Part shown: in pieces, positions 284-59,165 of the stretch | Numbering within the stretch: position 1 is the stretch's first letter | Layout: the number at the start of each line of letters is the position of its first letter | Assembly: GCA_948567375.1 (NCBI GenBank) | Contig: OX419756.1 | Coordinates: 48,498,333-48,562,332 of the forward strand | From: Lunularia cruciata | Taxonomy: Eukaryota > Streptophyta > Marchantiopsida > Lunulariales > Lunulariaceae | Direction of reading: 5' to 3' | Length of the DNA: 64,000 bases | Notes under the pieces: model-generated | The model's input: the letters and a program-made list of their open reading frames with translations, nothing else | Database searches by the model: none | Told to the model about the DNA's origin: nothing | Translations under genes and position numbers: made by a program

Positions 284-1901
284 TCTTACTCACAAGTGCC
301 AGACAACCTAATCGGAAATTCCTACCTTGGTGTTGTACTTGAATTTGATGTCGGGTCCAATCGAATTAAACCTTATGAAGTTCAAGCCAAGGTAGACCCA
401 GAATGATATCATAGTGTAGAGGTGCCACTACAAACCTCATACACTCCAAATACTCCTTCTCAATTTTGAAGGTAACAGGATGCGAGGTGCAGAATGCAGA
501 ACCTTTTCTACCATCCGCCATCATCAAACTACTTCCAATCACTGGCTTGATAGGAATACCCAATTCCTTTGCTACTTGCATAGATATGCAATTCTCTGAA
601 CTTCCAAAATCAACCAAAATCCTACAACCCCAATAAGATATCGTACCTTGCAAGTGAAGCAAACTTGCATAGGTCGAGCCTACAATCCCATTGGAACTAA
701 TCAAGCTCCCAGTAGGTGGCTCAAAATCTCCTATTGGGATTCTTCATTTCCCTAATCATTTTGTTCCACAAACTCCATCTGGGCAACTTGTTGAGGTCGC
801 ACATTCCTAAGTGGACATTCAGCAATGCAATGTCCAACTTGGCAACAATAAAAGCAACCTCCATTATGTCGTAATCTTTCTCTATCTACTGTGCCAAGTG
901 GTCTTCGTTGGAGGGCAACAATCTCCATTGGTACCGGTTCTTCCACTCGTGGTACTGGTAGGTTTTGTATAGGTCGAGGTCGAGATCAAGTTGTCGCAAC
1001 TAAGGAATCAAAATGCTTAGCCAATTGCATGGCTTCTTCTACGTTTTGTAGCTCTTGCATGGTCACCTCCAATCTGGTTTGTGACTTCAATCCTTGCACA
1101 AATCGATCCAGAACTTCACCTTCTTGGATATTTGGAATTTGCATGATGATATTCTGAAATTGTGTGATATAGCTTCTCACTAAGCCAATCTGCCTCAATT
1201 CCGCCAATTTATCTCGTGCAGCTCGGGTGGCATTTATAGTCTGAAATTGACCAAGTATTACATCCTTGAATTCTGCCCATGTCAAAATTGGTGTAACAAT
1301 TTGTCGTTCAGCTCTTTCTACTCGGAATCGCCACCAAAGTTTTGCCACGCCATCCAACTAGCTAGAAGCCAAGAGAATTTGTTTCTGCTTGTCTTGAAGA
1401 TTGGTGGCTTCAAAGTAACATTCACGGTCAAACACAAAATTCTCCACTGTGCCTGGAAGATTCTTGCCTTCAAACACCTTGGGTTTTGAAAATCGAATGC
1501 GATCTTCTCCATCTCAAACTAGCGCTTTGTCTATCTGTTCTCATCATTGTTGGTCTCGTTCATCCAACAATCGAGTAAGATCCTCGATTTGTTGTTGCAT
1601 TGCAAGGATAACATCCGGTATTGCCGCCATCGCTACTACTCTATTTCACTACCCTCAATTTATCTAGTTGATTAATACATAGATACAACACGTCCACCGT
1701 TCTCCATAAGTTACAACTGGAAGTATCAAGGGTTCCTCTGACACAATGATCATATGTAGAAAATCTTGCCCAAAGCATGAGGTGATGAATTGTGTGAAAC
1801 GATGCTTTGGTAATATTTGGACATGAAAGTCCCAATGGTTTAGCGGAAGTGGATTTGGTGGTCCATAAATTCTATCCATCCCATTCCTGCTCTGATACCA
1901 A

Positions 1902-2327
1902 TGTAAAAGACCGAAACCGAGGAGAGAAATAGGAGAATAGAAACTCACATTGGGACACTTGAATGAGGGAAAACTCTGAATGCCTAGCATGAGCTTTGGC
2001 TTTGGTATTTATAGGTAGCATACAAGGCCCTTGAGAAACTTCTCAAGAAGCTTCCTCAAGCTGCTTTCTTAGAGTGCAAGCCAAGTTAACTAGGAAGTTT
2101 CTCAAGAAGCTTCCTTCTAGAAGCCGCCTACTTGGCGTGCAAGCTAAGCTAGTTGGAAGCTTCTAGAATCTTCCTTCTAGAAGCTACTTACTTAAGGTGC
2201 AAGCTAAGCTAACTAGGAAGCTTCCCAAGAAGCTTCCTAGATACTTCCAAAATATTCTAGGCTAATTTGTCTTATGTGCTACTTCGCGAGCCTAATTGAC
2301 TTCGTCGCTAAACTCCATATTGTTACA
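1902..2327 (-). repeat. GypA long terminal repeat (5' LTR)
   Basis: On the plus strand it runs from TGTAAAAGACCG to ATATTGTTACA, so it has TG...CA ends in both readings. It is about 426 bp and clearly similar to the LTRs at 42249-42716, 44574-44940 and 50722-51133. In transcription direction (minus) it holds heat-shock-element repeats, then a TATA box (TATAAATA, complement of 2006-2013), then the PBS-adjacent end. Confidence 0.9.
2056..2184 (-). promoter_or_regulatory. Heat-shock-element array in the GypA LTR
   Basis: At 2156-2173 four alternating units fit the canonical element exactly (GAAgcTTCtaGAAtcTTC), followed by TTCtaGAA at 2175-2182. Further GAAnnTTC dyads lie near 2060. All sit upstream of the TATA box at 2006-2013 when read in the element's transcription direction. 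This is the arrangement expected of a heat-inducible U3 promoter. Heat-shock-factor binding itself is inferred. Confidence 0.6.
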
Positions 2328-42248: not shown

Positions 42249-42716
42249 TGTAACAATATGGAGTTTACTGACGAGTTAGTCAAGGCTAACAAAGTAGCAA
42301 ATAGGCCAAATTAGCCTAGAATATTCTAGAAGTATCTAAGAAGCTACTTGGTAACTTCCAAGTATTCAGTATGTGCATGCCAAGTGGTGAGAAAGCTTCT
42401 TGGGAAGCTTCTTGGCTAGCTTAACTTGCATCCCAAGTAGGTAGCTTCTAGAAGGAAGCTTCCAATTAGCTTAGCTTGCATGCCAAGTAGACAATTTCTA
42501 GAAAGAATCTTCTTGAGAAGCTTCTTAATTAGCTTGACTTGCACTCCAAGAAGGTGGCTTTAGGAAGCTTCTCAAGAGCCTTGTATGCTGAATATAAATA
42601 CCAAAGTCCAAGCTCATGCTTGGAATTTGGAGTTCCCTTCATTCAAGTGTTTTAATGTGATCTTCCACTTTGGTCTTCCATTCTCTTATTTCTCTCCTTG
42701 GTCTTGGTCTTTTACA
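42249..42716 (+). repeat. GypA LTR (plus orientation)
   Basis: It runs from TGTAACAATATGGAG to GGTCTTTTACA, about 468 bp. It contains heat-shock-element-like arrays (for example 42446-42462, TTCtaGAAgGAAgcTTC) and a TATA box at 42593-42600 (TATAAATA), in the correct order for a U3 promoter. Confidence 0.85.
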
Positions 42717-42758
42717 TTGGTATCAAAGTAGGAATAGGATGGATGGAATTTATGGATA

Positions 42759-42856
42759 ACCAAATCTATTTCCACCAAACCATTGGGATTTTTGTGTCTA
42801 TAGGTAGTACATGGACACAAAAATCCTAATGGTTTGGTGAAAATAGATTTGATGGT
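42759..42856. repeat. Fold-back inverted repeat, arms about 40 bp
   Basis: The left arm 42759-42798 (ACCAAATCTATTTCCACCAA...) is the near-complement of the right arm 42814-42856, with a 15-base loop. It lies directly inside the GypA primer-binding site region. Confidence 0.85.
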
Positions 42857-44573
42857 CTAAAAGGAAGTTACTTTCTTGGTCACAAGATCTCATTAGAGGA
42901 GATCAAGATGGAAGAGGAGAAAATCAAGGCTATTATTGATTGGCCTACTCCAAAGAATGCTATAGAAGTATGGGCATTTAATGGATTGGCAATTTTTTAC
43001 CAATTATTCATCCACTACTATGTTCATGTAATTGCACCATTGACCAACCTCTTGGGAAAAAACTTGAGCTTTTAGCGGACCACCAAGCACAAAGAACCAT
43101 TCCAAAAGTTGAAACATATGGTGTCTTCAAGACCCATTCTTCAACCATATGATCCTTCAATACCTTTTGTGGTTGATTTTGATGCTTCTAACTTTGCAAT
43201 TGGAGTTGTGTTGCAACAAGAATTCCCAAAATGGGTTACATCCTATTGCATTTATGTCTCATTGACTAAATACCATAGAAAAGAATTACTTTGCATGAGA
43301 TCAAGAACAACTAGCAGTGGTATATGCCACCAAGGTATGGAGGCATTATCTCTTGGAGAAACATGTGATCATGCAAACCAATCACAAACCCTTATTGTAG
43401 ATATTGAATTTGGAATACATAAAGAGTTGGCATCATTGATGGGAGAAACAACTACAATTGTTTGACATCAAACTTGAGTACAAACCCAATAGGTTCCATG
43501 TCATCCCCAATGCCTTATCATGATGGGTTGATCTTCCTCTTATCATGGCGGCAGTTACAACGATGTCAATCACCTCATAAATCCAAATTGAGTTTAAGAT
43601 AACTTTACAACAAGATCTTTTCTTTCAGATGGCCCGAGGTCATCTTGCAACATGCAACAAGAAATACAACACCTTCTCCTTTGAGGAAGACCTTCTATTT
43701 TATGAAAGCCAGATCTATATTATAGCCAAGAGTGATCTTCAACTTGTGCGCCTTCAAGAAGCCAATAATTTACCAATTGCTGGTCACATGGGTGTGGATA
43801 AGACTTTGAGTACACTCCAATGCCAATGGTGGTGGCCCAACATAGCACAAGATGTTTGACAATTTGTGTGATCTTGTGAGAGCTGCCAATGCAACAAGGC
43901 TAGCAACCAAAAACTAAACGGACTCCTTCAACCACTCCCCATCCCATATGCTTGATGGGAACACGTGAGCTTAGATCTCATCATATCCTTATCCAAGACA
44001 AACAAGGTCACACAACAATTGTGGTGTTTGTGGGTAACCTTAGTAAGCAAATCCATTTAGCATTAGCATTTGATATCATGGATGCTCCAACATTGGCACA
44101 TATCTACTTTGACAATGTCTTCAAGCATCATGGAATGCCGTGTGTACTCATCTTCAACCGTGATCTTCAATTTGTTTGAAAATTTTGGCAAGCATTCTTC
44201 CAAATACTTGGCACCAAGCTTACTTCGTCCACAACCTATCATCCTCAAATTGATAAACAAACCAAACATGAAAATTGCACCTTGGAGGATATACTTCATG
44301 CTATGTGAACATTCATTATACCAATTGGGATGAGTATCTTGCAATTGTTGAGTTTGCATACAATAATTCCAAATATTTAAACACCCAATTCTCTCCTTTC
44401 TTCCTTAATTTGGGCCAAGACCTACTTGTTCCAAATTCCCTTCTTGCTCCTCTTCCATCTCATGTTCCTCATCTTCCACCTTCTTGAACATCATATCCCA
44501 ATCCTTCCAACAAGCCAAATCTCATCTCCTTGTTGCTAAGCATTGTCAAAAACAATTTATGGACCACCATTGT

Positions 44574-44940
44574 TGTAAAAGACCGAGACCGAGCAGAGAA
44601 ATAGGAGAATGGAAACTCACATTGGGACACTTAAATGTGGGAAAACTCCAAATGCCTAGCATGAACTTTGGCTTTGGTATTTATAGGTAGCATACAAGGC
44701 CCTTGAGAAGCTTCTCAAGAAGCTTCCTTTTAGAAGTCACCTACTTGGTGTGCAAGCTAAGCTAGTTGGAAGCTTCTAGAAGCTTCCTTGTAGAAGCTAC
44801 TTACTTGAGGTGCAAGCTAAGCTAGCCAGGAAGCTTCCCAAGAAGCTTTCTAGATACTTATGGAATATTCTAGGCTAATTTGTCTTCTGTGCTACTTTGT
44901 AAGCTTGACTAACTTTGTTGTTAAAATCCATATTGTTACA
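44574..44940 (-). repeat. GypA LTR (3' LTR of the 6.6-kb copy)
   Basis: TG...CA ended, about 367 bp. A perfect four-unit heat-shock element lies at 44769-44786 (GAAgcTTCtaGAAgcTTC), with two GAAgcTTC dyads near 44706-44726. The TATA box is the complement of 44678-44685, downstream of the array in transcription direction. Confidence 0.9.
44769..44786 (-). promoter_or_regulatory. Perfect heat-shock element in the GypA LTR
   Basis: GAAgcTTCtaGAAgcTTC matches the eukaryotic heat-shock-factor consensus of alternating GAA/TTC triplets with two-base gaps in all four units. It is palindromic and so reads the same on both strands. It lies about 85 bases upstream of the TATA box of the LTR. Confidence 0.65.
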
Positions 44941-45089
44941 TATTCCCCTGCCGCTAGTTGGTGACGTCCTCATTGCCAGTGAAGCTTTGAAATCCTAGAT
45001 GGCTGTCTATGCATTCTGGAGGTGAGAAAGAGGTTCCCATGTGGCATCATGAAGGGGATACCCTTTCCAAAGGACCTTGTACTCCATAT

Positions 45090-45480
45090 TTTGGCGACGG
45101 CCTTGTTGAATATGGCAATGCACAAGGATACAATCAACTTCAAACTCCTCATGATCATTGATAGGGACAAGAAGAGGAGGAGGTTGGACTCGAGAGGAAA
45201 AGGAAGAGGGGTTAGGAACAAAGGGTTTTTACCTTGCCTTGTCACATGCGTATCCATCCTGTCTTTCATGTTTCCCTTGGAAACATGAAAGACAGGATGG
45301 ATACGCATGTGACAAGGCAAGGTAAGTTGATAAGCAGCAAGAGAGACAATTTGGGTGATATCAAAGGGTCCTATCTAATTAAGGGCAAGTTTACGAACTT
45401 GGGTATCAAGTAGGAGAGAGGTTACTAGAGGATAGCATGACTTTATCACCGATTTCAAAGGTGAGATCACGACAATGGTG
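45090..45480 (-). repeat. Second copy of a GypA 3'-internal segment
   Basis: 45090-45480 and 46125-46470 are copies of the same segment (shared GGATACAATCAACTT, CTCCTCATGATCAT, GGTGAGATCACGAC) in the same orientation. The unclassified 0.57-kb repeat lies between them. Confidence 0.8.
45229..45325. repeat. Perfect 47-bp palindrome with 3-base loop
   Basis: The arms 45229-45275 and 45279-45325 are exact reverse complements (left arm starts TTACCTTGCCTTGTCACATG). The related segment at 46245-46320 shows only the right-arm orientation, so the left arm is an inverted copy of the right one. Confidence 0.9.
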
Positions 45481-45482
45481 AA

Positions 45483-46072
45483 ATTTTTTAGCAATGGGAG
45501 ATCAAGTACTTGATTGCAATGCAAGCTCACATTTAGATGTAGAACCAATGGGCGCTATTGAGTGGCCATGAGTGGCTATGGGCCCCCATTGAGTGGCAAC
45601 ATGAAAAAGCACATTTAATCCTAAATTAACACACTACACAGTGTGGCAATTGATGTTGACCAGATTCACTCCAAACCTAGCACTTTATTAACCCTAAATT
45701 GTAATTAATGCTTTATGGTGTGCCAACCAAAACTTTGTTTTGTACAAACCACATGTTATGGAGTTTTTTAATAATAACGGACTTGGACACAAATTTGTAG
45801 TGTGTCCCTTTCTTCCTCTTGCTCGTACCCTATATTGATTTAGTCATCACTTTGTAAAAATCTAAATGAAAATATATAGAGCTTTGTAAAACTATTTTTG
45901 AAACCCCCTATTATGTATACATAATAGGGGCAAAATCAAAAAAGGTAAAGGACAAAAGGGATTTAAGAATCATGTGTGAAAAATCATAAATAAATGCAAT
46001 TACAACACATGGTATTGTAAGGACTTTGCCAATTGTAAGGACTTGAAAAGTGGAAGTAAGAGCCTTGTAATT
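45483..46072. repeat. Unclassified dispersed repeat, copy 1
   Basis: It aligns over about 575 bases with 56662-57233. It starts near TTAGCAATGGGAGATCAAG and ends near GGAAGTAAGAGCCTTG. It has no coding potential. A 26-bp perfect palindrome (centre GTATAC, arms from CCCCTATTAT) lies at 45905-45930. The terminal AAGTGGAAGTAAGAGCC motif is repeated once more at 46087-46111. It is inserted in GypA sequence. Confidence 0.8.
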
Positions 46073-48916
46073 AACAATTGTAAGAGACTTGATAAGTGGA
46101 AGTAAGAGCCTTTGTATGTTGTCGGTGTCCTCGTTGAATGTGGCAATGTGCAAGGATACAATCAACTTTGTACTCCTCATGATCATGGATAGGGATGGGA
46201 GGAAGAGGAGGTTGGACACGTGAGGAAAAAGAAGATGGGTTAGGAACAAAAGGTTTCAACTTGGAAATATGAAAGACAGGTTGGATGCGCATATGACAAG
46301 GTAAGGCAAGGCAATAAGCAATAGGAGAGATGATTTGGGTGACATCAAAGGGTCCTATCCAATTAGAGGTGAGTTTCCAAAATTGGGTATCAAGTGGGAG
46401 GGGTAGGTTACTAGAGGATAACATGACTTTATCACCGACTTCAAAGGTGAGATCACGACGATGGTGATCCGCATATTGTTTCTGACAATTTTGAGCAACA
46501 AGGAAGTGAGATTTGGCTTGTTGGAGAGATTAGGATATGGTGGTCAAGAAGGTTGAAGTATGAGGGACCTAAGATGGAGGAGGAGAAAGAAGAGAATTTG
46601 GAACAAGCGGATCGTGGCCAAAATTGAGAATGAAAGGAGAAAATTTGGTGCTTGTCTATTTGGAATTATTGTAGGCAATGACAAAGGCATGCAACATATC
46701 CTCCAAGGTACAATTTGCATGTTTGGTTTGTCCATCAATTTGAGGATGATAGGCCATGGACAAAGCAAGTTTGGTGATGAGTATCTGGAAGAGTGCTTGC
46801 CAAAACTTATTGGTGAATTAAGGATCACAATCAAAGATGAGTTTATGTGGCATCCCATGATGCTTGAAGATATTGTCAAAGTAGATTTGCGCTAAGATTG
46901 GAGCATCATGGTATCAAAGGTTGGTCCCAAGTAGATTTGCTTACTAAGCTTATCCACAAACACCACGATTGTTATGTGTCCTTGCTTTGTCTTGGGTAAC
47001 GATATGATGAGATCCAAGCTCACGTGTTCTCATTGAGCAGATGGAATGGGAAGTGGTTGAAGGAATCCACTCAGATTTTGGTTGTTGGCCTTGTTATGTT
47101 GGCAGCTCTTACACAATTGGACAAACTCTTGAACATCTTGTATCATGTTGGGCAACCACCATTGGCGTTGGAGGGTACCCAAGGTCTTGTCCACACCCAT
47201 GTGACCAACTAGTAGTAAATCATGGGCTTCTTGAAGGCGCACAAGTCAAAGATCACCTTTGGCTGGAACCATAGATCCGGTCCTCATGGAATAGAACGTC
47301 TTCCTTGAAGGAGAAGGTGTTGTACTCCTTGTTGCATGCTATAAGACAACCATGTACCATTTCAAGTAAGGGATCTTGTTGTAGAGTTGATTGAAACTCA
47401 TTTTGGACCTTGGAGTCAATTGACACCGTTGTAATTGCTGCCGTGATGAGAGGAAGAGACCTCAAATCAGGTCATTGTGATAGCGCATCAAGGATGACAT
47501 GGAACCGACCTAGTTTGTACTCAAATTTGATGTCAAAAAAATGGAGTTGCTCCTCTCATCAATGATGTCAACTCTTCATGTGCTCCAAGTGTAAGGTTTG
47601 CAACAATGGTTTGTGATCAGTTTGCATGATCACTTGTTTCCCCAAGAGATAATGCCTCCATACCTTGGTGGCATATACCATTGCAAGTTGTTGTTGATCT
47701 CAAGCAGAGTAATTTTTTCAGCCATATTTAGTCAGCAAGACACAAAGGCAATGAGATGTAGTCTATCTAGGAATTCTTGTTGCAACACGACTCCAATTGC
47801 AAAGTTAGAAGTATCAAAATCAACCACACATGGTAGTTGAGGATCATATGTTGAAGATAGGCCTTGAAGACACCATATGTTTCAACTTTTGGAATGCTTC
47901 TTTGTGCTTGGTGGTCCATTGGAAGCTCAAGTTCTTCCCCAAGAGGTCAATCAATGGTGCAACCACATGGTATAATAATGGATGAACCATCGGTAAAGAC
48001 TGGCCAATCCATTAAATGCCCATACTTTTGTAGCATCCTTTGGAGTAGGCCAATCAATAAAGGCCTTGATTTTCTCCTCTTCCATCTTGATCCCCTCCGA
48101 TGAGATCTTGTGACCCAAGAAGGTAACTTCCTTCTGCCAAAAGGCACACTGTGATTTCTTATAGTAAAATTTCCATTGTTGTAGTTGTCTTAGGACTTCT
48201 TGCACATGATTCACATATTCTGCCTATATCTTGCTATAGATTAAGATATCATCCAAGAACACCAGCACGTACCAATCCAATAGTCTATCCAACACTTGAT
48301 GCATCTGATCCATGAAGACTTTTGGAACATTAGTGAGCCCAAAAGGTAGAACTCTCTACTCAAAATGCCCATACCTTGTGCAAAAGGTAATCTTTTGCAC
48401 ATCTTTCCTATCAATGTGGATTTGCCAATAGCCACTATGAAGATCCAACTTGGAAAAGTATCATGCTCCCCTCAATTGCTCAAGAAAGTCATTGATCCAA
48501 GGCAAGGGATATGCATTTTTCATTGTTTGCTTATTGAGCCCACGATAATCAATACATAAACAAAGTCCTCCATCCTTCTTGGGAACAAATAGTACCAGTG
48601 CTCCCCAAGAAGAGGTGTTGTGTTGTATGAAGTCCTTCTTTAACAACTCCATAAGTGTTGTTTGCAACTCCTCCAACTCCTTTGGTGAGAGCCAATAGAT
48701 TGATCTACTCACTGGAGTACTCCTTGGTAATAACTCAAATCTTGAAGGGCATACCACGATCAAAGGGTAATCCCTTAGGCAGATCAGCTGGAAACACGTC
48801 CACAAACTCTTGAACTATGTGATCAACCATTGCTTGATGAGGCTCTTGGCACTCCTCAGATTGTCCTTGTGCAACCGGCTTGATCTTCACTACAAAAATA
48901 GACTTATCTTCCTCCA

Positions 48917-49102
48917 AAGCTTGCTCCATGGCTGCTTCATTAATAAACTTTCCATCTAAGGACTCATCTTTCTTCAAAGCTTGCTCCATGGCTACTTTCT
49001 TGGTAAAATTCCCATCTTGGGACTCATCCTCCTTCAAGGCTTTCTCTATGGCTACCTTCTTGACCAACTTCCCATCTTGGGACTGACTATTTTTAGGTGT
49101 CT
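48917..49102 (-). repeat. Three 63-bp tandem repeats in the GypA linker (second copy)
   Basis: Counterpart of 98-283. On the minus strand it encodes units of the type ESQDGNFTKKVAMEQALKKD between the protease and reverse-transcriptase regions. Confidence 0.75.
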
Positions 49103-50721
49103 TACTCAAAGATGCCAAACAACCTAATCGGAAATTCCTACCTTGGTGTTGTACTTGAATTTGTTGTCAAGTCCAATCAAATTGAACCTTATGATGTTCA
49201 AGCCAAAGTAGTCCTAGAATGACATTGTAGTGCAGAGGTCCCATTACAAACCTCATACACTCCACATACTCCTTCACAATCTTGAAAGTAACAAGATATA
49301 AGGTATGGAATGCAAAACACTTTCTTCCATCCGCCAACATCAATCTACTTCCAATTACTACCTTGATAAGAGTACCCAATTCCTTTACTACTTGCATAGA
49401 TATGCAATTCTTTGAACTTCTAAAATCAACCAAAATCTTACAACCCCGATTAGATATCATACCTTGCAAGTGAAGCAAACTTGCATAGGTCGAGCTTTCA
49501 ATCCCATTAGAACTAATCAAGCTCCTAGTAGATGACTCAAAATCTCCTATTGGGATTCCTTGTTTCCTTGATTGTTCTACTCCACAAACTCCATTTGTGC
49601 AACTTGTTGAGGTCACCCATTCTTGAGTGTGCATTCAACAATACAATGTCCTAATTGGTGACAATAAAAACAACCACCATTCTGTCGCAATTTCTCTTTA
49701 TCTGTAATGCCAAGTGATCTCTGTTGAATGGCATCAATCTCTATTGGTGCCGGCTCCTCCACCCATATGTAGTGTAATAGTAGGTTCTATGGAGGTCAAG
49801 ATCGAGACCAAGTTGTTGCAACCAAGGAATCAAAAAATTCGGCCAACCGCATGGCTTCCTCCAAGTGTTGCGACTCTTGCATGGTTACCTCTAATTTGGT
49901 TCTTGACTTCAAGCCCCTCAAAAATTGATCTAGAGCTTCACCTTCCAATATATTTAGAATTTACATGATGGTATTCTAAAATTGCATGATGTAATTTCTT
50001 ACAGAGCCAATTTGTTTCAACTCTACCAACCTATCCCGTGCAGCTCATGTGGCATTTATAGCTTGGAACCAACTAATTATTGCACTCTTGAATTTTACCA
50101 AGTCAAGCTTGGTGTAACAATTTGTCATTCAGCTTGCTCCACTTGGAATCTCCACCATAGCTTTGCTAATCCATCCAATTGGCTAGAAGCCAAGAGAATT
50201 TGTTTTTGCTCATCTTGCAGATTGGTAGCTTCAAAATAATGTTCATAGTCAAATATAAAATTATCCATTGCACCCAAGAGATTCTTGCCTTCAAATGCCT
50301 TGGGTTTAGGGAATTGGATTTGATCTTCTACTTCTCAAACTGGTGCTCTCTTTATGTGCTCTTGTCATCAAAGCTCTCGTTCATCCAACAATCAAGTAAG
50401 GTGCTCAATTTGTTGCTGCATAGCAAGGATAACATCGGGCATTGCCGCCATGGTTGCTACTCTATCATGCTACCCCTAATCTATCTAATTTGTTAACACA
50501 TAGAAACAACATGTCCACCATTCTCCATAAGTTACAACCGGAAGCACCAAGGGTTCCTCAAATATGGTGATCATATGCAAAAAATCTTGTCCAAAGTGTG
50601 AGGTGATGAATTGTATGAAACAATGCTTGGGTAGTACTTGGACACAAAAATCCTAATGGTTTGGTGGAAGTTGATTTGGTGGTCCATAAATTCCATCTAT
50701 TCTATTCCTACTCTGATACAA

Positions 50722-51133
50722 TGTAAAAGACCGAGACCGAGGAGAGAAATAGGAGAATGGAAACTCACATTGGGACACTTGAATGTGAGAAAACTCCAAA
50801 TACCTAGCATGAGCTTTGGCTTTGATATTTATAGGTAGCATACAAGGCCCTTGAGAAGCTTCTCAAGAAGCTTCCTTGAGCCGCTTCCTTAAAATGCAAG
50901 GCAAGTTAACCAAGAAGCTTCTTAAGAAGCTTCCTTCTAGAAGCCACCTACTTGGCGTGCAAGATAAGTTAGTTAGAAGCTTCTAGAAGTTACCTGCTTA
51001 GGGTGCAAGTTAAGCTAGTCGCAAAGCTTCCCAAGAAGCTTCATTGATGCTTCTAGAATATTTTGGACTAATTTGGCTTATTCTCTACTTTGTTAGCCTT
51101 ACTAATTATGTCATTAAACTCCATATTGTTACA
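50722..51133 (-). repeat. GypA LTR (5' LTR of the 6.6-kb copy)
   Basis: About 412 bp with TG...CA ends. Heat-shock-element arrays lie at 50855-50874, 50914-50942 and 50976-50988, and a TATA box (TATAAATA) at the complement of 50826-50833. Confidence 0.9.
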
Positions 51134-56661: not shown

Positions 56662-57233
56662 AATTTAGCAATAGGAGATCAAGTACTTGATTGCAATGCA
56701 ATCTCACATTTGGATGTAGGACCAGTGGGAGCCATCGAGTGGCCACGAGTGGCTATAAGTGCCATTGAGCGGCAATTGGTGAAAGCCCATTTAATCCTTA
56801 ATTAACACACTACACTGGGTGGCAATTGGCACCGACCGGATTCACCCCAAACCAGGCACTTTATTAACCTTAAATTGTAATTAATGCTTTATGGTGTGCT
56901 AACTGAAAGCTCCATATCCTACAAACCACATGTTATGGAGTTTGTTAATATTAAAAAAGTTGGACAAAAATTTGTAGTGGGTACTCTTTCTTCCTCCTGC
57001 CTGCACCCTATACTGATTTAGTCAACGCATCGTCAACGCATCAAAATCTATATGAAAATATATAGAGCTTTGTAAAACTATTTCTGAAACCCCTTACTAT
57101 GTATACATAATAAGGGCAAAATCACAAAAGGTAAAGGACAAAAGGGATTTAAGAGTCATGTGGTAAATCATATATAAATGCAATTACTACACATGGTGTT
57201 GTAAGGACTTGACAAGTAGAAGTAAGAGCCTTG
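56662..57233. repeat. Unclassified dispersed repeat, copy 2
   Basis: Homologue of 45483-46072 in the same orientation, here without Gypsy sequence around it. The palindromic core (about 57091-57116, centre GTATAC) is kept with one mismatched pair. Both copies stop at the same AAGAGCCTTG, which supports a discrete element. Confidence 0.8.
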
Positions 57234-58557: not shown

Positions 58558-59165
58558 ATGAGTGTTGAGAATTTGGCATTTCTACATCTGTTGAATCTGC
58601 CTGATGAGGTGGATAAGTATTCAAGCAAACAAACGCACACTTATGTGCAAGACTCCAAGGCTATGGCCCGGACAGCTGTGGACGTGGAGGAGTTTCCTGA
58701 GTCGTATGTCTTCGTTGCAGATATGCCCGGACTTAGATCCGCTGATGTCAAGGTGAGGTTCAACTTAACACTGCAGTTCCACCTGTAAGTGGAATATGTG
58801 AAGAGATAGAAGCAGACACACGATTTGCAACCTTAGCCGCTTGCTTTAGCAGAAGAGTGAAACTGAACGGCTGATAAGGTTTGTTTTGGCACTGAATGTA
58901 TTGGGAATGAATGAAGGTGCAATTAGAGAATGAGAACATACTGTCCATCAGTGGTGAGCGCAAGCGAAAGGAGCCAGAAGGTGGGAAGTTTCTTCAATTG
59001 GAACGCAAAACGGGGAGATTCATGCGGAGATTTACGCTACCCAGCGACGCGGACCTTCCTAAAATTGGAGCTGCATGTCAGGATGGAGTCCTGACAGTAA
59101 CTGTACCAAAACTTCCTCCTCCGGAACCCCCAAAGCCGAAGGTCATTGACGTCAAAGTGACATGA
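58558..59165 (+). CDS. Cytosolic class II small heat-shock protein
   Basis: Two exons (58558-58752 and 58917-59165) with a 164-base GT-AG intron give 147 residues. The ATG at 58558 is used; the longer open frame begins with TTG at 58519 and is not needed. Residues 30-43 carry the class II signature ([13 protein letters not shown], compare DAKAMAATPADV). The alpha-crystallin domain spans about 43-132 ([50 protein letters not shown]). It ends with PPPEPPKPK and the VIDV form of the C-terminal I/V-x-I/V motif that links dimers into oligomers. Such proteins hold unfolding proteins during heat stress without ATP, in the cytosol. The intron after ADVK is unusual, because seed-plant class I and II genes are generally intronless. 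The nearest gene, on the other strand, is the SKP1-like gene 1.2 kb away. Confidence 0.95.

Follow-up and report, generated by a model that had tools for sequence, protein, structure and literature searches.

Heat-shock-element arrays in the LTRs of an abundant Ty3/Gypsy chromovirus family of the liverwort Lunularia cruciata: a candidate ONSEN-like promoter

The closest described system is ONSEN (ATCOPIA78) of Arabidopsis, whose LTR carries a heat response element (HRE) that resembles the arrays described below and has as many as four perfect units in a row (class 4P) (PMC3907296, PMC5059998). Full activation of ONSEN is reported to require HSFA1 and HSFA2, and HSFA2 binds the HRE in the LTR (PMC3907296). 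Of the HRE classes, the "four perfect unit" one ranks as the most efficient, and strong heat induction is a feature of the species that carry it; in A. lyrata a rise with heat is described for all copies with a predicted four-unit HRE, while species with no or weak HREs gave no strong heat response (PMC5059998). Two copies without an HRE also scored in that study, which was ascribed to ambiguous reads, and regions other than the HRE were found to be conserved as well as the HRE itself (PMC5059998).

Ty3/Gypsy elements have been linked to heat as well. PHRE1 and PHRE2 of moso bamboo belong to this superfamily and were studied under heat stress, but their LTRs are described as interacting with TCP, DOF and GATA factors, and neither HSE nor HSF occurs in the main text of that report (PMC8656106). 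RLG2 of the moss Physcomitrium patens, which we liken to the present family by description alone, is a Ty3/Gypsy element of a non-seed plant that is strongly induced by heat and ABA, although an HSE array is not part of its description there (PMC7466625). Outside plants, TCN3 and TCN12 of the fungus Cryptococcus have LTRs with putative HSEs and show raised mobilisation at 37 °C, but the putative HSEs number only two and one per LTR (PMC12810828).

Here we describe LTRs with arrays of heat shock elements (HSEs) in a 64,000-nucleotide stretch of the Lunularia cruciata genome (the window), and follow them through the assembly. On the basis of sequence, we consider that the U3 arrays probably act as an ONSEN-like, HSF-driven heat-responsive promoter of an abundant Ty3/Gypsy chromovirus family, and put the probability of this reading at about 0.7. 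ONSEN is a Ty1/Copia element with 24 copies in A. thaliana (PMC5059998), whereas the liverwort family is Gypsy, numbers its copies in the thousands, carries about 13 dyad sites and has a heat response that we infer. Because ONSEN is a Copia element, an independent gain of a heat-responsive LTR in a Gypsy family, as proposed in a first-pass annotation of this DNA, is plausible by analogy. Given the bamboo and moss reports, heat-linked plant Gypsy elements as such are already known. Judged by title or the start of the abstract, none of the matches listed in a literature search, with subscription journals mostly outside its scope, concerned HSE arrays in a liverwort Gypsy LTR, and a search with the letters of the dyads gave no LTR-element paper by title among the matches listed.

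LTRs and element remnants in the window

We call GAAnnTTC or TTCnnGAA a dyad, and four contiguous units with two-base gaps a four-unit element. As Table 1 shows, the four LTRs named in the first-pass annotation are present at the bounds it gave, have TG...CA termini and contain several alternating GAA/TTC triplets, which make up 11, 9, 7 and 9 dyads in LTRs A to D. Both four-unit elements that it listed were recovered at their positions, and in 4/4 LTRs the arrays lie upstream of the TATA box TATAAATA in the direction of transcription. The array that had been placed at 2056-2184 is there but is wider than this, since the dyads of LTR A cover 2035-2236. In 2000 dinucleotide shuffles of each LTR the mean number of dyads was 0.24-0.42, and 0/2000 shuffles of any of them matched the observed number of 7-11. 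The lone three-unit element of LTR B was matched by 15/2000 shuffles and that of LTR D by 12/2000. The spacing within dyads is likewise specific: in 12 LTRs, comprising the four from the window and eight from the grid sample below, GAA-N2-TTC occurs 80 times, as against 0, 1, 3, 1 and 1 times at gaps of 0, 1, 3, 4 and 5. Gaps of 6 and 14 between GAA and TTC (n=20 and n=25) and TTC-N4-GAA (n=30) are also frequent, because the layout of the LTR is itself repeated.

Table 1. Coordinates of the LTRs, their motifs, the coding remnants and the neighbouring heat shock gene (window positions unless a contig is given)
Feature	Position	Strand	Remarks
Primer binding site TTGGTATCAGAGC	1889-1901	-	adjoins LTR A
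LTR A	1902-2327	-	5' LTR; its element extends left beyond the window
TATAAATA of LTR A	2006-2013	-
HSE dyads of LTR A	2035-2236	-	n=11
60-bp tandem module of LTR A U3	2035-2238		3.4 copies, 77% matches
Four-unit element of LTR A	2156-2173		GAAGCTTCTAGAATCTTC
3' partner of LTR A	C2:48495011-48495434		~3 kb left of the window; 96.0% identical
LTR B	42249-42716	+	9 dyads
Three-unit element of LTR B	42319-42331
TATAAATA of LTR B	42593-42600	+
Truncated interior of element B	42717-44573	+	LTR C directly after
LTR C	44574-44940	-	7 dyads; shorter than LTR A
TATAAATA of LTR C	44678-44685	-
Four-unit element of LTR C	44769-44786		GAAGCTTCTAGAAGCTTC
Chromodomain piece	45007-45228	-	PF00385, E 3.3e-10; beside LTR C
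Integrase C-terminal SH3 (SH3_Tf2-1)	46071-46529	-	PF24626, E 1.7e-15
Integrase zinc-binding H2C2	47030-47245	-	PF17921, E 6.7e-18
RNase H piece	47732-47881	-	PF17919, E 3.9e-7
Reverse transcriptase C-terminal piece	47951-48223	-	PF00078, E 0.0094, under the curated cut-off
LTR D	50722-51133	-	9 dyads
TATAAATA of LTR D	50826-50833	-
Three-unit element of LTR D	50976-50988
HSP20 gene	58558-59165	+	domain match 58905-59156; start codon ATG at 58558; apparently a single intron; LTR D is 7.4 kb away

The stretch from 44941 to 50721 was taken as eleven stop-to-stop pieces, each of which was searched separately for protein domains. The integrase SH3, H2C2, RNase H and chromodomain matches pass their cut-offs and the reverse transcriptase (RT) match is weak, as are those of the gag/protease pieces (Ty3_capsid, E 0.0015 and 0.0071; SCAN, E 0.0014; gag-asp_proteas, E 0.021; TAXi_C, E 0.026). 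No domain match was obtained for three of the eleven, among them the RT piece at 48461-48814 and the integrase piece at 46892-47029. With the RT piece weak, the order on the minus strand is RT, RNase H, integrase, as in Ty3/Gypsy elements, and the chromodomain lies beside LTR C, possibly in another insertion than element D. By these predicted domains the element is a Ty3/Gypsy chromovirus, in agreement with the Gypsy assignment made earlier; the ONSEN/COPIA78 family proper is ruled out by the Gypsy domain order and the chromodomain, which do not fit Ty1/Copia. The primer binding site beside LTR A is presumably of the initiator-Met tRNA type.

LTRs B, C and D come from truncated or nested copies. 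Five inverted repeats (I3, I5, I9, I16, I22) link parts of the interior of element B to the RT-integrase region of element D. LTRs C and D are 75% identical, and a stretch near the integrase end is present twice between them; their direct 5-base flanks differ, but CATTGT occurs on one side and, shifted by two bases, on the other, and the two LTRs may represent one old insertion. A different repeat, 84-93% identical between 45487-45981 and 56664-57167, has one copy that separates the coding pieces on the side of LTR C from those of element D.

The LTRs had been described as old fossils. This is apt for LTRs B, C and D but less so for LTR A, given its partner (Table 1); the same five bases, TTGAG, stand at both outer sides of this pair as a matching target site duplication. 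Nor is the family only fossil, as three further LTR pairs are 98-99% identical. In the expected 3' stretches of 20 elements, 12 matches of at least 200 nt and one of 101 nt were found, with none in 7. Dropping L048, which is a short LTR end followed by an inverted LTR, left 11 pairs with identities of 99.1, 98.6, 98.3, 90.8, 88.0, 88.0, 86.4, 84.4, 83.6, 82.8 and 78.0%, of which those of low identity may be unrelated neighbours. Four units are present in both LTRs of 4/4 pairs at 96-99% (including the LTR A pair) and of 1/8 pairs at 78-91% (Fisher p 0.01), a pattern of loss in old pairs that neutral decay alone could also give.

Arrays across the genome and their position before the TATA box

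Across the 565.8 Mb of the assembly (74 contigs), the perfect four-unit element GAANNTTCNNGAANNTTC occurs 7,083 times, as against 117 for the control pattern read backwards. We also sampled 200 kb of contigs C1, C2 and C6 as twenty 10-kb stretches placed on a fixed grid, and found 8 LTR stretches of the family in them, or about 40 per Mb; one of them, L019, is the same copy as L004. Provided that the grid is representative, this density corresponds to roughly 10,000-45,000 in the whole genome (Poisson limits). All 8/8 have at least four dyads, and 16/17 three-unit and 4/4 four-unit sites of the 200 kb lie inside family LTRs. Only 77/216 dyads of this sample do so, which counts against reading them as HSEs.

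LTR-PBS junctions number 6,085 genome-wide (at most 2 mismatches), and the first 40 listed were taken independently of the motif; all are exact matches on contig C1, hence the sample is biased to less diverged copies. L048 was removed, giving 39 LTRs, and the truncated L054 and L070 were retained and scored as misses. (L048 is also left out of the 50 LTRs and the pair list, but is retained among the 51 LTRs of the alignment, spacing, word-rank, conservation and tree analyses.) Other copies do carry the arrays: at least three dyads are present in 39/39, a three-unit element, meaning at least three contiguous alternating nGAAn units upstream of the transcription start or TATA box, in 34/39, and a four-unit element in 22/39. 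Counting against the HSE interpretation are the five LTRs that lack a three-unit element (L034, L044, L045 and the truncated L054 and L070) and the 17/39 that lack a four-unit element. L046, L050, L059 and L067 have three units only, despite a nearest neighbour at 95-97% identity. In a tree of the 51 LTRs the four-unit class does not trace to one gain or one loss; it requires 13 changes against a shuffled mean of 17.0, with 19/500 shuffles as low as 13, the bootstrap not settled and L048 on a very long branch.

The arrays occupy a fixed place relative to the TATA box. TATAAATA starts 112 nt before the LTR end in 36/51 LTRs and 110-113 nt before it in 42/51; it is found at other places in 3/51 and is inexact in 6/51. 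In 50 LTRs, 506 dyads lie upstream of the TATA column and 1 lies downstream. Homologous GAAnnTTC/TTCnnGAA sites number about 13 in the U3 of a family LTR, and their starts lie some 27-290 bp before TATAAATA. The order holds genome-wide: a four-unit array followed by TATAAATA 126-156 bp on gives 5,349 matches, in which overlaps may be counted twice, and the reverse order gives 20, while a three-unit element followed by TATAAATA at 75-104 bp gives 662 as against 25 backwards. The shuffles, the genome-wide backwards control and the order of array and TATA box together rule out a chance origin. The arrays are thus non-random, directional and common to thousands of copies, some of them recent.

Under the ONSEN-like reading, heat would cause the host heat shock factors (HSFs) to trimerise, the trimers would cooperatively occupy the four- and three-unit arrays, and array-bound HSF would promote the start of transcription at the TATA box. 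The RNA started in the LTR would then be copied and integrated. HSF binding, heat-induced transcription and heat-linked transposition are the steps that we infer; in favour of the reading are the HSF DNA-binding domains present in the host genome and the report that Marchantia HSFB1 binds HSE DNA in vitro (PMC12445474).

Conservation, layout and competing explanations

The spacers of the dyads are strongly biased, with GC in 294/366 GAAnnTTC and TA in 141/154 TTCnnGAA; these are the spacers of an optimal HSE. In 51 aligned LTRs the column agreement is 0.945 for the triplets, 0.916 for the dyad spacers and 0.877 for the other U3 columns. Triplets exceed spacers at p 0.03 (p 0.046 in a thinned set of 30 rows) and other U3 at p 1e-4; by base, A and T in the triplets lie above the spacers, C does so slightly and G does not. 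This column test replaces a reference-labelled test (triplets 0.937, spacers 0.868, other U3 0.807), and shows a smaller effect; the earlier test was set aside because a reference copy chosen for its intact motif biases the triplet value upwards. GAA..TTC is the commonest of all repeated gapped words, and ranks 11th by conservation among 86 of them, with TTC..GAA 27th, in a control that uses the same reference-labelled values as the test set aside. The HSE words are therefore not exceptional among repeated LTR words and conservation is not specific to HSEs; taken together, the column agreement and the word ranks indicate that the arrays have been kept, yet to no greater degree than certain other parts of the LTR.

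These data bear on the strongest alternative, in which a 60-bp module that by chance holds AAGCTTC palindromes was duplicated in tandem, and the arrays arose as a side effect and are not used by HSF. Such a module is present in LTR A, where the dyads multiply with it and so are not independent events, and the linker words of the LTR are as well conserved as the HSE words. Duplication by itself, however, leaves the preference for a two-base gap, the contiguous four-unit arrays throughout the genome, the excess of triplet over spacer and other U3 columns and the ending of the dyads at the TATA box to be explained, and in LTR D, for all its 9 dyads, the finder reported no tandem array. We regard this alternative as unlikely. 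LTRs differ in length, LTR C being shorter and L036, L056 and L071 apparently longer, and HSE dose may vary with the number of 60-bp modules.

Somewhat less likely again is that the HSF-bound arrays act chiefly as an enhancer of constitutive or developmental expression, or that they are bound by a repressive class B HSF, the element not being induced by heat. A six-frame search of the genome located the HSF DNA-binding domain in at least two places (C14:50658-51116 and C10:53595627-53595803), a lower bound, and so small a number would suit such a role, as would the report that the liverwort factor tested in vitro, and found to bind HSE DNA, is Marchantia HSFB1 (PMC12445474). Against it, the same four-unit class in ONSEN accompanies strong heat induction (PMC5059998). 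The HSF place on C14 reads across stops, perhaps an intron.

Pairs of dyads separated by four bases (12 bp apart; for example at 2035-2054) number 107 in 45/51 LTRs, with the loop TTGA in 72/107. They could form a hairpin with an 8-bp stem and are out of the 5-bp register of a canonical HSE, which counts against reading them as HSEs. That the paired palindromes (GAAGCTTC-TTGA-GAAGCTTC) serve instead to form a hairpin, whether in DNA or in the RNA of the 3' U3, for example in RNA processing or packaging, is nevertheless very improbable, as it accounts neither for the contiguous GAA-TTC-GAA-TTC arrays with TA between dyads nor for the GAATATTC dyads.

Host genome and implications

HSP20 gave 28 matches in all. 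The single host heat shock gene in the window, an HSP20 gene, has no perfect HSE in the 1 kb upstream of its start at 58558. Only three-unit matches at 8 of 9 positions occur there, one at -370 and one at -656, and the window as a whole has 0.8 such matches per kb as background. This counts against the ONSEN-like reading, and use of HSEs by the host is accordingly presumed here.

The genome has 12 dynein heavy chain matches, which point to flagellate sperm and hence neither a flowering plant nor a conifer, in line with the probable non-seed plant of the first-pass annotation; cycads and Ginkgo have flagellate sperm too, but far larger genomes. Eight large contigs make up about 555 of the 566 Mb, with C7 at least 66 Mb. 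For Lunularia cruciata, a genome of 580-581 Mb with Ty3/Gypsy bursts and a uniquely small U chromosome has been reported, and the word "heat" has 0 occurrences in the main text of that paper (PMC9985172).

If the arrays work as proposed, the stress switch of a low-copy Copia element is also present in a liverwort Gypsy family of thousands of copies, and heat may have driven the spread of that family. This would give a direct, testable cause for the Gypsy bursts of Lunularia, which were published without a link to heat (PMC9985172). About 7,000 perfect four-unit sites would then stand against the two HSF places found, itself a minimum. A more speculative scenario, possible but doubtful on present evidence, is that gain of the HSE array made the chromovirus heat-driven, that its bursts helped to make the Lunularia genome nearly twice as large as that of Marchantia, and that the thousands of perfect four-unit HSF sites left behind may titrate HSF or rewire the heat response in a plant with very few HSF genes.

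Finally, CG is depleted in the 51 LTRs, with an observed/expected ratio of 0.32 as against 0.45 in the window. About 6 CG per LTR are left, whereas the cytosines of the ONSEN 1 and 2 stretch are, according to the figure legend, CHH only (PMC3907296).
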